From Ruminiclostridium sp. (GTDB lineage Bacteria; Bacillota_A; Clostridia; Oscillospirales; Ruminococcaceae), in the NCBI GenBank assembly GCA_017550775.1, contig JAFZOA010000241.1:1-9725 (forward strand): a stretch of DNA of 9,725 nt, in the 5' to 3' direction. Shown here one piece after another: positions 3,429-6,577 of this stretch. Numbering within the stretch: the first letter of the stretch is position 1; each line of letters begins with the position of its first letter. The notes under the pieces are model-generated. The model did no database searches. It was not told the DNA's origin and was given only the letters and a program-made list of their open reading frames with translations. Both the position numbers and the translations under genes were made by a program.

Positions 3429-3495
3429 ATGCACCGGTGATAAGATATGAGCATTTGCGAATGAGATCGCAAAAAATTTGAAAAGCTTTTTGTTG

Positions 3496-3534
3496 ACACC
3501 TCGCCCCGACTATCCTGGGTGAGGTGTTTGTTTT
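3496..3534 (+). terminator. Intrinsic terminator after comF
   Basis: ACACCTCGCCC (3496-3506) pairs with GGGTGAGGTGT (3517-3527) over eleven base pairs including one G-U, with a ten-base loop, followed by TTGTTTT. It separates comF from the metY transcription unit. The 67 bases between the comF stop and this stem hold only a weaker seven-base-pair hairpin (TTTGCGA/TCGCAAA, 3454-3473) that has no U-tract. Confidence 0.85.
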
Positions 3535-3581
3535 ATCATGAAAATGATACCGTAAAAATTATTTCAAAAAATATTACAAAA

Positions 3582-3598
3582 CCTATTGACAAAATAGG
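3582..3598. promoter_or_regulatory. Inverted repeat over the metY -35 box, possible operator
   Basis: CCTATT (3582-3587) and AATAGG (3593-3598) form a perfect six-base inverted repeat separated by five bases, with the -35 hexamer at its centre. A further pair, TAGGAT (3595-3600) and ATCCTA (3621-3626), flanks the -10 box. A symmetric site covering the -35 box is where a dimeric repressor would bind. An Rrf2/CymR-type cysteine regulator would fit a sulfur gene, but that is a guess from context and the site is not matched here to any known consensus. Confidence 0.35.
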
Positions 3599-3614
3599 AT
3601 TTGTGTGCTATAAT
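3586..3614 (+). promoter_or_regulatory. Sigma-A type promoter of the metY unit
   Basis: A consensus -35 box TTGACA (3586-3591) and a consensus -10 box TATAAT (3609-3614) are separated by exactly 17 bases. Transcription would be expected to begin near 3621, giving a leader of roughly 185 bases before metY. The stretch upstream (3535-3585) is AT-rich and contains a small hairpin, TATCAT-GAAA-ATGATA (3534-3549), with no assigned role. Confidence 0.88.
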
Positions 3615-3651
3615 GCATATATCCTACAAAACAGATATACATGGAGGCAAT

Positions 3652-3723
3652 ATGCAGAACACCTTTGAAAAGCTTGTAAGAGCAAACTTCCGGTTCGGGC
3701 GAATGTACCGATGTTGCTGTTGA
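3652..3723 (+). CDS. Cysteine-rich leader peptide (Cys-Cys-Cys-stop) upstream of metY
   Basis: This is a 23-codon ORF in the 5' leader of metY. It begins with ATG preceded by GGAGG at 3643-3647 (spacing four bases) and ends FRFGRMYRCCC followed directly by TGA. The three cysteine codons are TGT TGC TGT at 3712-3720. The peptide has no other cysteine and no hydrophobic segment, so it does not look secreted. A run of the regulated amino acid's codons at the end of a short leader is the hallmark of ribosome-stalling attenuation, and poly-cysteine leader ORFs controlling sulfur genes are known in mycobacteria. The inferred role is cis-acting sensing of charged cysteinyl-tRNA to control metY. No transcription terminator lies between this ORF and metY, so control would act on translation. 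Confidence is good that the ORF is translated, moderate for the mechanism. Confidence 0.75.
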   Translation: MQNTFEKLVRANFRFGRMYRCCC

Positions 3724-3800
3724 ATCTGAAAACAAAACAAATTCGCGAACAATACAACAACAAAACACTATCGGCACAACGCCGCACAACGAAAGGAAGT
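3686..3800 (+). promoter_or_regulatory. Possible long hairpin sequestering the metY ribosome binding site
   Basis: ACTTCC (3686-3691) inside the leader ORF is complementary to GGAAGT (3795-3800), the metY Shine-Dalgarno sequence. Continuing inward, TTCG (3694-3697) pairs with CGAA (3790-3793), GGCG (3698-3701) with CGCC (3780-3783), CCGAT (3708-3712) with ATCGG (3770-3774), and TGTTG near the cysteine codons (3718-3722) with CAACA in the CA-rich loop (3755-3762). All these pairings are nested, so they can form one interrupted hairpin. A ribosome halted at the cysteine codons would cover the inner strands and free the metY site. A competing local stem, CGGC/GCCG (3772-3784), is also possible. 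The pairing was found by eye and its stability has not been computed. Confidence 0.5.
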
Positions 3801-3807
3801 AACCATT

Positions 3808-5091
3808 ATGGCAAACTATAAATTTGAAACATTACAGCTTCATGTAGGTCAGGAACAGCCCGATCCCGCTTCGGACGCAAGAGCAGTCCCGATCTATGCA
3901 ACAACATCTTATGTATTCAAGAACTCCGCTCACGCCGCAGCACGCTTCGGTCTTGCAGACGCAGGCAACATCTACGGAAGACTTACCAATTCCACACAGG
4001 ACGTGCTCGAAAAGCGCATTGCCGCTCTCGAAGGCGGTGTAGCCGCACTCGCGCTCGCGTCCGGTGCCGCTGCGATCACCTACACGATACAGGCTCTCGC
4101 TACCGCAGGCGAGCACATAGTAGCTCAGAAGACTATATATGGCGGTTCTTACAACCTTCTTGCTCACACGCTACCGCTCTACGGCATCAAGACCACGTTC
4201 GTGAACGCGCATGACCTTGCAGAGATCGAGAACGCGATACAGCCGAACACCAAGGCGATATACCTCGAAACACTCGGCAATCCGAACAGTGATATCCCCG
4301 ATATCGACGCTGTAGCCGAGATAGCGCATAAGCACGGTCTCCCGCTCGTAATAGACAACACCTTCGGTACACCCTACCTTATCCGCCCGATAGAGCACGG
4401 CGCAGACATAGTTGTTCACTCCGCTACCAAGTTCATAGGCGGTCACGGAACCACTCTCGGCGGTCTCATAGTAGACTCCGGCAAGTTCGACTGGAAGGCA
4501 AGCGGGAAGTACGCTCCTATCGCGGCTCCGAACCCGAGCTACCACGGGATATCCTTTGCGGACGCTGTAGGCGCAGCCGCATTCGTTACATACATCAGAG
4601 CAATCCTCCTTCGTGACGAGGGAGCAACGATATCTCCGTTTGCGGCATTCCTGCTCCTCCAGGGCGTTGAGACTCTGTCGCTGCGTCTCGAGCGCCATGC
4701 CGAGAACACCAAAAGGGTAGTTGAATACCTTTCCAAGCACCCGCTCGTTGCAAAGGTAAATCACCCGTCGCTCCCCGATCATCCCGACCACGCGCTGTAT
4801 CAGAAGTACTTTCCGAATGGAGGCGCAAGCATCTTCACCTTTGATATCAAGGGCGGTCAGGAAGAAGCGCATAAGTTTATCGACAATCTTGAGATCTTCT
4901 CGCTGCTCGCAAACGTTGCAGATGTGAAGTCGCTGGTTATCCACCCCGCGACTACAACACACAGCCAGCTTACAGACGAGGAGCTTGCAGATCAGGGTAT
5001 CACACGCAGCACTATCCGCCTTTCTATCGGTACAGAGCATATCGACGATATAATTGCCGATCTCGAAAAGGGTTTTGCTGCTATCAAGTAA
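3808..5091 (+). CDS. metY: O-acetylhomoserine sulfhydrylase (homocysteine synthase)
   Basis: This cytoplasmic PLP enzyme of the Cys/Met metabolism family joins O-acetylhomoserine with sulfide to give homocysteine and acetate. The protein has 427 residues, the usual length for MetY and longer than MetB/MetC-type members (about 380-400). It opens with FETLQLHVGQEQPDPASDAR, the standard MetY beginning; YATTSYVF and YGRLTNSTQDVLEKRIAALEGG follow, and the PLP-binding lysine is K208 in the motif HSATKFIGGHGT. The C-terminal NVADVKSLVIHPATTTHSQL and IRLSIGTEHIDDIIADL segments are also typical. The start has AAAGGAAG 7 bases upstream. The gene stands alone between its own promoter and terminator, and appears to be controlled by a cysteine leader peptide and possibly an operator. 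Some family members also accept O-acetylserine, so a contribution to cysteine synthesis cannot be excluded. Confidence 0.95.
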   Translation: MANYKFETLQLHVGQEQPDPASDARAVPIYATTSYVFKNSAHAAARFGLADAGNIYGRLTNSTQDVLEKRIAALEGGVAALALASGAAAITYTIQALATAGEHIVAQKTIYGGSYNLLAHTLPLYGIKTTFVNAHDLAEIENAIQPNTKAIYLETLGNPNSDIPDIDAVAEIAHKHGLPLVIDNTFGTPYLIRPIEHGADIVVHSATKFIGGHGTTLGGLIVDSGKFDWKASGKYAPIAAPNPSYHGISFADAVGAAAFVTYIRAILLRDEGATISPFAAFLLLQGVETLSLRLERHAENTKRVVEYLSKHPLVAKVNHPSLPDHPDHALYQKYFPNGGASIFTFDIKGGQEEAHKFIDNLEIFSLLANVADVKSLVIHPATTTHSQLTDEELADQGITRSTIRLSIGTEHIDDIIADLEKGFAAIK

Positions 5092-5353: not shown

Positions 5354-6577
5354 ATGGACAAAAAAGATAGATGTGTGATCTGCGGCGATCTGTTTACGGA
5401 CGAGGACATAAGGATATACTGTCCGGACTGCGGCATGCCGATGCATAAGGATTGCTTCGAGATGAAGGGAGAATGCCCCAACAGCCGGAACCATTACCGT
5501 TACGCGGCGCGCATGACCGCGGAGACCGGTTCGCCGGTTCGCACAGACCGCCATTTCGAGGACGGGAACGGCTGTGAGATCTGCGGCAAGCCTTTCGGTG
5601 CGGACGACGAGAAAGTTTACTGTCCGGACTGCGGAGCCGCTATGCACAGAGTCTGCTATAACATGACGCATAAATGTCCGTATGCGGATGAGCACTCTCC
5701 GAGACCTTTCGCCCGTTCTCCTCAGACTCCCGTATCTCAGGAGCCGGTGTGCGACAAGTGCGGCGAAAAGCTCGATAACGGAGATGAAAAGGTATATTGC
5801 CCGATCTGCGGCACGCCCGTACACCGCAAGTGCTGGGACGCGGATCCGGTATGCCCGAACGAGGACAAGCACGCCATGGGTTACGACTGGGAAGCGGAGC
5901 ATACCCCGAAGAAATCGGATATGAAGGAGAATATAAAGGACATACCGCTGAACCAGATAGCGTTCGACAACTTCTCCGAAATGATATCGAGCCACCCGAT
6001 ACGCTCACCGGAAAGCGGAGAGGAAATGACCGTAAGGGGAGTAAAGCAGGAGGAGCTGGTTCACTTTCTCGGTGAGAACAACATCAGTACACCGAGGTTT
6101 TTTGCACTGTTTCTGAATATGGCGAACCAGGGAAAAGTGGTCTCTCTCAATATCTCAGCATGGTTTTTTATGCCGTTCTACCACTTTTACCGGAGAATGA
6201 CAGGACCCGCAATTATTCTCACTCTTATGACGTTCGTGCTTACGGCACCCTCGCTTATCCGACAGATCATCTACTTCGGGAGCGGTGACGCAGGAGACCT
6301 GCCTCTGTTCAATCTTGCGAACATCACCTCATATATCCTGATAATACTGCGCATTTTGCTGCTGCTGTTCAACGACTACATCTATATGCGCTGGTCGGTT
6401 AGCAAGATATTGTCGCTTCGGGAGCGTTATAAGGACGCTTCTACGGACGAATACTACGCCGCGCTCGAACACAGTGGAAATCCACGCATGATGTATGTTC
6501 TCGGAGGAATAAGTCTGCTGTTCCTGTTGGTATATATTCTCAACCTGTTCATGAATCTGACGGGAATGATATCATAA
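5354..6577 (+). CDS. Membrane-anchored protein with three prokaryotic RING-finger modules and a DUF2628-like membrane domain
   Basis: The 407-residue protein has three tandem zinc modules with one pattern: C-x2-C-x12-C-x2-C-x4-H-x2-C-x6-C-x5-H. They begin at C7, C74 and C133, and all eight ligand positions are kept in each copy. This matches the Prok-RING type of RING-like finger, although no ubiquitin system is implied. Acidic and Pro-rich linkers join the copies. A soluble stretch (about 180-260) leads into a membrane domain opening with NISAWFFMPFYHFYRRM, which resembles DUF2628 proteins, and about three membrane segments follow (roughly 285-303, 322-345 and 382-402). The zinc modules therefore probably face the cytoplasm. 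AAAGGG sits 7 bases before the ATG. The next gene follows after 38 bases. Function is unknown; protein binding by the zinc modules is the likeliest role. The domain assignment is from motif recognition only. Confidence 0.85.
   Translation: MDKKDRCVICGDLFTDEDIRIYCPDCGMPMHKDCFEMKGECPNSRNHYRYAARMTAETGSPVRTDRHFEDGNGCEICGKPFGADDEKVYCPDCGAAMHRVCYNMTHKCPYADEHSPRPFARSPQTPVSQEPVCDKCGEKLDNGDEKVYCPICGTPVHRKCWDADPVCPNEDKHAMGYDWEAEHTPKKSDMKENIKDIPLNQIAFDNFSEMISSHPIRSPESGEEMTVRGVKQEELVHFLGENNISTPRFFALFLNMANQGKVVSLNISAWFFMPFYHFYRRMTGPAIILTLMTFVLTAPSLIRQIIYFGSGDAGDLPLFNLANITSYILIILRILLLLFNDYIYMRWSVSKILSLRERYKDASTDEYYAALEHSGNPRMMYVLGGISLLFLLVYILNLFMNLTGMIS

Follow-up and report, generated by a model that had tools for sequence, protein, structure and literature searches.

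In Firmicutes other than those considered here, methionine genes are controlled by the SAM-I riboswitch and the T-box. Control can also be exerted by short leader peptides: SpeFL is a regulatory arrest peptide, and the output of the TnaC leader runs through Rho. Poly-cysteine upstream ORFs (uORFs) preceding cysA2 and other genes of mycobacteria are said to have been described by Canestrari et al. in 2020. In the passages of the papers cited here, poly-cysteine leader ORFs of mycobacteria are treated repeatedly (PMC4633059; PMC9094748; PMC1262725; PMC13236596), and cysteine leader peptides are already on record (PMC1262725; PMC4633059; PMC8632094). For the mycobacterial leaders, Rho-dependent termination was put forward in what the cited part of the source calls a weak prediction (PMC1262725), and the cysteine system of Mycobacterium smegmatis is presented, in the part of the paper used, as translation attenuation and not Rho (PMC13236596). 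The uORFC-8-2 motif before cysS of Rhodobacterales is described as a case of ribosome-mediated attenuation with tandem cysteine codons, usually at positions 14/15, and an intrinsic terminator (PMC8632094). TnaC is classed as a regulatory arrest peptide in the passages cited (PMC3902921; PMC8429421), and attenuators of sulfonate transporters are reported from other bacteria, the relevant passages containing no motif like the one described below (PMC2965389).

The locus analysed here lies in a window of 9,725 nucleotides of Ruminiclostridium sp. DNA, the whole stretch under study, and all features given below are on its + strand. A short ORF at 3652-3723, encoding MQNTFEKLVRANFRFGRMYRCCC followed by a stop, is defined by its translation, an alignment of 25 leaders and a fixed distance from start to core. 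It is preceded by a Shine-Dalgarno (SD) sequence, GGAGG (3643-3647), ending 4 nt 5' of the ATG, and by a sigma-70-type promoter, TTGACA-17-TATAAT (3586-3614), in which 12/12 consensus positions are matched; the transcript is predicted to start at about 3620, with a 5' leader of about 30 nt. The ORF closes with the cysteine codons TGT TGC TGT (Cys21-23; 3712-3720), which adjoin the stop, and 84 nt separate this stop from the start of metY (3808-5091), an O-acetylhomoserine/O-acetylserine sulfhydrylase gene (TIGR01326, 627 bits against a cut-off of 495). The initial annotation had read this arrangement as an SD-led ORF before a sulfur gene, starting some 30 nt from the likely transcript start and ending in three cysteine codons and a stop, and it holds in each of these respects, the transcript start being a prediction from the promoter position. 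Upstream lie ilv genes and a comF-like gene (its match below the comF cut-off). Comparison of sequences suggests that this leader peptide acts in cis and belongs to a new family, termed NFRxGRM leaders, within a reading in which sulfur genes are controlled by coupling to cysteine. The probability of this reading is put at roughly 0.55, a joint figure for the whole explanation: leader family, stalling at cysteine codons, ON/OFF switch and Rho step.

Three cysteine codons plus stop, in any frame, arose in 0/20000 mononucleotide shuffles of 3616-3807, and this result, together with conservation before metY in other genomes, rules out a chance ORF; the comparative evidence is the stronger of the two. 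An inverted repeat, CCTATT-GACAA-AATAGG (3582-3598), overlaps the -35 box as the candidate operator of a repressor, perhaps a CymR/Rrf2-like sulfur repressor. Related signals recur among the 124 leaders assembled below: a loose TTGAC..TA-N3-T pattern lies upstream of 108/124 (1-6 in five shuffled sets), CCTA-N8..10-TAGG upstream of 41/124 (0-3 in each of five shuffled sets), and an SD-like motif was found by script before the chosen start in 95/124. No intrinsic terminator was detected on the + strand between 3200 and 4200, where the sole terminator-like site is on the opposite strand. A known riboswitch or T-box is likewise rejected at the window, for which the Rfam scan returned no family at gathering score; laxer settings give eight matches in 3429-3860, the best of them to a snoRNA family (E 0.023), and none comes near the gathering score. 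Elsewhere in the window, 5354-6577 encodes a protein with what look by eye like cysteine-rich, zinc-ribbon-like N-terminal repeats, for which NCBIfam gives weak matches, none of them reaching its cut-off.

Among metY loci from other genomes, a short ORF with N-[FY]-R-x-G-x-M occupies the same place in 36/80, and one further metY locus (L039) has a variant leader. A set of 124 non-redundant leaders was compiled from 130 non-redundant pattern rows, of which a regular expression kept 109, 15 were added by eye and 6 were left out; L118, where the pattern match falls inside a 456-codon ORF, was excluded. All 124 share the consensus F-x-x-L-[LV]-R-x-N-[FY]-R-x-G-R-M, in which the variable residue x of NFRxGRM is [FNCY], within a core of 18 codons. 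In 102/124 the start codon chosen by script and the N of NFRxGRM are exactly 11 codons apart, making the Met of GRM residue 18. At the window, the conserved part of the core is FEKLVRANFRFGRM (residues 5-18; 3664-3705), kept despite synonymous codon variation, and it ends in the near-invariant codon pair CGA-ATG (Arg17-Met18; 3700-3705), where the ribosome is suspected to slow down or arrest. CGA encodes the Arg of GRM in 117/124 leaders, while it accounts for 11/483 Arg codons in the 5' parts of the adjacent metY genes. Elsewhere in the motif synonymous drift is extensive, 109 leaders between them using every one of the six Arg codons at NFR, of the four Gly codons and of the two Asn codons. 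The near-absolute conservation of one synonymous codon needs explaining, and pairing of CGAATG with a nearby complement is rejected, since CATTCG occurs near the leader in 2/124 cases against 4.7 in shuffles and is not enriched. Judged from the aligned leaders, the constant part is this 18-residue core ending in GRM (CGA-AUG) and not the CCC end. The initial annotation had taken the cysteine end as the defining feature, missing the core; its proposed check, conservation upstream of metY, was borne out for frame and core at the 36 of 80 loci, the constant element being the GRM core in place of CCC.

The family is absent from the libraries and papers searched. No Pfam or NCBIfam model matches the four family peptides compared; a profile built from 25 leaders found 62 database proteins, three of them with a source name, each time 'hypothetical protein'. 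The strings NFRFGRM, FRFGRM, NFRNGRM, RANFRFG and RQNFRFG gave no match in the paper texts searched, and the literature matches listed include neither an NFRxGRM family nor, for Clostridia, any leader peptide that controls methionine or cysteine genes. The core motif, searched as a degenerate DNA pattern, matched 81/394 sampled genomes of the order of Faecalibacterium, which we take to be Oscillospirales, compared with 16/394 for a reversed-pattern control in the same order (own count from the table). These 394 genomes contain 90 matches, 84 judged real and 6 unrelated. Two weak matches of a separate scan (in genomes G020 and G030) did not enter the leader set. With a stricter pattern, which also misses the Faecalibacterium genome itself, matches were found in 2/299, 0/119 and 2/199 genomes of nested samples, and in 4/120 genomes of the phylum of Treponema, one of them the query genome. 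Seven Treponema records (L018, L027, L033, L037, L051, L073, L074) have the leader with metY, some with GVM or GLM; at the Treponema loci the Arg position of GRM is Arg (CGC or CGA), Val or Leu. Horizontal transfer of the leader from Clostridia to Treponema is possible.

metY follows 100/124 leaders, 91 of them assigned by a first script and nine more by a second choice of ORF (L018, L027, L073, L162-L165, L171, L180). The other 24 include 14 genes for MetQ/NlpA lipoprotein-like proteins recognized by eye, of which the four scanned (L085, L143, L195, L207) match PF03180, and two MetN-like genes, of which L132 was scanned (TIGR02314, 362.7 bits, below the cut-off of 499.7, plus a NIL domain). 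NMT1-type substrate-binding proteins are encoded downstream in three (L176, L179 and L208, the last SsuA-like but below cut-off) and permeases in two (L190, scanned and TauC/SsuC-like below cut-offs, and L191, which is alike). L151 lies 228 nt upstream of a ThiF-family gene, a peptidase-like fragment follows L126, and for L202 the available sequence contains no ORF downstream. By predicted function, the genes concerned extend beyond cysteine to methionine uptake and sulfonate-type transporters. In addition to metY, such leaders precede metQ-like and transporter genes, and a sister leader precedes cysK (L239, below).

SAM-I matches were found in 64/77 leader-positive genomes (58 over cut-off) and in 36/77 without a pattern match; the search took 77 of the 81 pattern-matching genomes, excluding four whose sole match was judged unrelated. 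In leader-positive genomes, 19/20 of the SAM-I regions read are followed by metK (identified by eye from its start, FTSESVTEGHPDK), L228 being unclear. Apart from tRNAs, an Rfam scan of 24 loci without and 20 with the exact core yielded a single hit, a purine riboswitch located on the other strand of L047, so that a SAM-I riboswitch or T-box is rejected as the controller at the loci scanned. Since SAM-I stands before metK in the cases read, metY and the transporters of these genomes seem to be under leader-peptide and not riboswitch control, and the family may account for the regulation of metY and of methionine and sulfonate-type transporter genes where the SAM riboswitch precedes metK.

Met and Cys residues abound in a second kind of leader ORF, distinct from the first and present at L068 (4190-4318, + strand, stop included; MIKPYTTIIMMWMCMWICQMCMCLCA...), and similar ones occur at L015, L030, L072, L109, L135, L136, L138, L152, L183 and L189. 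This ORF is placed between the promoter and the NFRxGRM leader and, in those inspected, is followed by a terminator-like hairpin and a U run. It passes the threshold at 14/124 loci, about 11 of which look alike, and its pattern occurs in 4/394 genomes, at positions that adjoin NFRxGRM leaders already known. The arrangement resembles a classical Met/Cys attenuator placed in tandem with the NFRxGRM leader.

Cysteine codons occupy particular places relative to the core. Counting from the Met of GRM as 0, with x at -3 and the first tail residue at +1, Cys fills 3/1736 places (14 x 124) from -17 to -4, 16/124 at -3, and none at -2, -1 and 0. After GRM it is found at 52/92 (+1), 12/89 (+2), 37/87 (+3) and 23/78 (+4), and falls off further on, with 10/68 (+5), 6/45 (+7), 7/54 (+6) and 3/37 (+8). 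Short tails of 0-11 residues characterize 93/124 leaders, 32 of them empty (GRM-stop); 59/61 non-empty short tails contain Cys, which makes up 122/309 of their tail residues. The remaining 31/124 leaders have longer tails. No Cys is present at x or in the tail of 35/124 leaders, and sensing of Cys-tRNA therefore cannot be the whole story. The proposal that the cysteine codons exert control thus finds backing in their position-specific occurrence and in the non-empty short tails, and meets its limit in the leaders that have none. The opposite reading, that Cys is not conserved and only methionine genes are concerned, was dropped given the sulfonate-type transporters, cysK and the position-specific counts.

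A possible RNA switch can be recognized in 16 relatives with long tails, where a strand at about +6 to +16 nt after GRM (CTCCCGGxCTG) pairs with the 5' arm of an intrinsic terminator. In the predicted structures of these relatives, antiterminator and terminator are mutually exclusive, and the antiterminator adjoins the control codons. The 16 loci come from 22 that were picked by eye, and the inner hairpin of L160 was entered by hand. For the antiterminator helices (alignment A1, 16 loci), 89% of cells are paired and two-sided changes occur in 12/17 pairs. On none of five measures did any of 500 shuffles attain these levels, and pairing in slid controls was 28-45%, values that are to be read with the proviso that the shuffles ignore relatedness and that the tested structure was derived from the same sequences. 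The initial annotation had likened the window ORF to an amino acid attenuator, a comparison that suits these 16 relatives, with their covarying switch, and does not extend to the window, which has neither a terminator nor a supported alternative fold.

The influence of a translating ribosome was modelled by shifting its footprint codon by codon, the footprint and equilibrium folding being assumptions. Averaged over the 13 switchable loci, the terminator has a probability of 0.12-0.16 for P-site positions -5 to -3 (0.12 at -4), which rises to 0.46 at P=-2, 0.65 at P=-1 and 0.94 at the GRM Met; it stays at or above 0.87 from there to +9 and is mixed beyond. A terminator probability above 0.5 is reached in 1/13 with P at -4, where codon -3 is in the A site, against 13/13 at the GRM Met. 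Without a ribosome all 13 are predicted ON, at 0.24 or less. With the ribosome at the ORF stop the terminator also forms in 3 of the 13, and in the other three of the 16 (L048, L128, L193) it forms in the model whatever the ribosome position. Cys occurs at x (-3) in 12/16 terminator loci and in 4/108 others (Fisher p 2e-10, uncorrected for relatedness), and a Cys codon therefore tends to adjoin the switch point, on its upstream side, where a terminator exists. A ribosome waiting at Cys -3 is thus predicted by the model to correspond to ON, and one that reaches GRM to OFF, in the terminator relatives. Starvation for methionine-tRNA as the only signal was discarded, as P=-1 already forms the terminator in 9/13, the wrong sign for a methionine gene.

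A sister type of leader, MCC(C)RM, is found among the metY loci without the exact core (n=44), ten of which have a Cys-containing frame ending in the searched Arg-Met pair. Nine were judged related (L025, L040, L046, L057, L061, L063, L064, L069, L075) and one unrelated (L062); an example is L040, MTTYFVKLRNKIMCCCRM-QYSWADFMAG. All nine have CGA-ATG, CGA not having been required by the search. The records are assigned to Lachnospiraceae, Acetatifactor, Roseburia, Bacillota, Eubacteriales and, once, Atopobacter. A strict sister pattern matched 5/246 genomes of the order of Butyrivibrio, with no control matches; four look real and L241 does not. Downstream of these are metY (L237, L238), cysK (L239; TIGR01139, 461 bits against a cut-off of 351) and a MetQ/NlpA-like gene below NCBIfam cut-offs (L240). 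By eye, a plausible start often, if not always, lies 17-18 codons from the Met of RM. The switch strands of the NFRxGRM leaders are also present in most sister leaders. In the model, the terminator probability of L240 is 0.01-0.17 while the A site holds a Cys codon and at least 0.68 further on; L240 is the only sister leader with clean switching at the Cys codons, L046 switching only at the first. To suppress the terminator of L075 the ribosome has to stand farther upstream, and in L064, L069 and L237-L239 the terminator wins at every ribosome position. As to the scope of this model, the script found no terminator for L025, L040 and L063 and picked the wrong hairpin for L057 and L061.

In the preferred reading, the leader would couple translation of the 18-codon core and the Cys codons to expression of the sulfur gene. 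When Cys-tRNA is scarce, the ribosome would wait at the Cys codon or codons and the gene would be expressed; with sufficient cysteine it would proceed to CGA-AUG or to the stop, and expression would fall. In the terminator relatives, a ribosome held at Cys -3, upstream of the antiterminator strand, would leave the switch ON, and one on the GRM Met would cover that strand, letting the terminator form (OFF). The ribosome probably senses cysteine supply and sets the sulfur genes accordingly, and the cysteine link of the family is supported by codon placement and by the modelled switch.

At the window, a strict attenuator is not demonstrated, because there is no + strand terminator and no convincing or supported alternative fold. 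Here, the proposal is that a ribosome stalled at Cys21-23 would shield the spacer from Rho, so that metY would be transcribed when cysteine is short, an output resembling that of TnaC and the least certain step of the mechanism. The spacer between the leader stop and the metY SD (3724-3791) is A-rich with far more C than G, a candidate Rho loading stretch; counted over 3724-3792, it has 20 C and 8 G. Mean C-G skew over 71 short-tail loci is +0.26 in the spacer compared with -0.03 in the 5' flank, and is positive in 54/71 spacers and 27/71 flanks (p 2e-9), which provides circumstantial support for Rho. Since the M. smegmatis system is described, in the passages cited, as translation attenuation (PMC13236596), a translational output is an alternative for the window. 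Counting against the preferred reading, the window model predicts that metY SD access goes up from 0.21 to 0.43-0.60 when the ribosome occupies the core as far as GRM and stays unchanged when it occupies the Cys codons, an effect that would be opposite in sign to the terminator loci.

The rival that fares best, and which is judged to fall somewhat short of even odds, is a nascent-chain sensor, in which the core would arrest the ribosome at CGA-AUG on a sulfur metabolite (cysteine, methionine or S-adenosylmethionine), with the Cys codons accessory. It draws on the conservation of the peptide while the codons drift, on the 18-residue length in 102/124 and on the 32/124 leaders that end in GRM-stop without Cys. 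In addition, the first downstream position at which the modelled terminator forms in 13/13 is that with P at the GRM Met, and it holds in at least 12/13 up to +9. As an arrest at GRM means OFF in the terminator loci, the effector would be an end product. Against this stands that the arrest itself is a prediction from sequence, and that the sister type has CGA-AUG but Cys codons in place of NFRxG, an indication that codon sensing by itself can suffice. Moreover, it is not obvious how a GRM-stop arrest would produce OFF at loci that have no terminator, and in the window model such an arrest would open the metY SD. A combination of the two ideas, held yet more tentatively, is that the core could be a nascent-peptide sensor of sulfur amino acids, arresting at CGA-AUG in the presence of ample end product, with codon and nascent-chain sensing as interchangeable modules on one attenuator. 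If true, this would be a bacterial arrest peptide controlling cysteine and methionine genes, in anaerobic bacteria. As both leader forms sit on the same RNA switch, they offer a clean test of nascent peptide versus codon starvation.

A translation booster or coupling leader, by which the short ORF would load ribosomes that reinitiate at metY without any sensing, is improbable. The good SD and the short spacers are in its favour (median 63 nt over 73 short-tail loci, the gene start having been placed by script in 73/93), and the part of the source cited proposes such reinitiation at bacterial leader peptides (PMC4833913), but the peptide core, the CGA codon, the Cys positions and the conserved terminator switch would be left unexplained.

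More improbable is an RNA-level element, with core nucleotides conserved, for example, for pairing with the metY SD. The metY SD (AAAGGAAG; 3792-3799) is predicted to pair with the leader core, and in the fold of 3622-3830 (z -1.6) it is ACTTCC of the core that meets GGAAGT of the SD. CGAATG is almost invariant, and complementarity between motif and SD slightly exceeds that of swapped pairs (mean rank 0.39, expected 0.5, 73 loci). Yet the other codons use nearly all synonyms and complements of CGAATG are not enriched. Among 61 short-tail loci, moreover, SD access has no sharp step by ribosome position, rising slightly almost anywhere on the leader and most at -1, 0 and -8 (+0.13 each), and a conserved SD-sequestering fold is accordingly not claimed for this group. 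The 61-locus scan supersedes a difference of +0.12 between GRM-bound and free short-tail leaders obtained without positional control. A small protein acting in trans is the least probable alternative, its high core conservation and the listing of the Faecalibacterium version as a hypothetical protein being outweighed by tails that range from 0 to more than 20 residues, by long-group tails that follow the RNA switch and by the position of the leaders in cis before sulfur genes at nearly all loci read.

Set against the known systems, the coupling of leader translation to cysteine favoured here shares with E. coli trp that ribosome position on the leader ORF would choose between antiterminator and terminator in the 16 relatives. 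It differs in that the control residue is one Cys or none, the nascent peptide is conserved and the window has no terminator; unlike trp, the 13 switchable loci are predicted to read through without a ribosome. With TnaC and SpeFL, the family has in common a short conserved leader with key residues beside the stop, and the segment that would lie inside the ribosomal tunnel is conserved at the amino acid level, but a putative arrest in the terminator relatives would switch expression OFF, not ON. The SAM-I and T-box systems differ in that neither was found at the leader loci scanned. uORFC-8-2 resembles the sister MCC(C)RM leaders in its tandem Cys codons and terminator, belongs to another phylum and precedes cysS, with no RM/CGA-AUG element described in the passages cited (PMC8632094). 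As far as the cited descriptions go, the mycobacterial poly-cysteine uORFs are similar in having Cys codons near the ORF end, sulfur genes and no intrinsic terminator. In place of the leaderless form expected of that class, with the ATG at the transcript start, the window ORF has an SD and a predicted 5' leader of about 30 nt; going by these descriptions, it is also set apart by its 18-residue core running to CGA-AUG, its place before metY and relatives that are often without Cys. Cysteine leader peptides are thus already known, and it is the conserved nascent-peptide core that may set the NFRxGRM leaders further apart.
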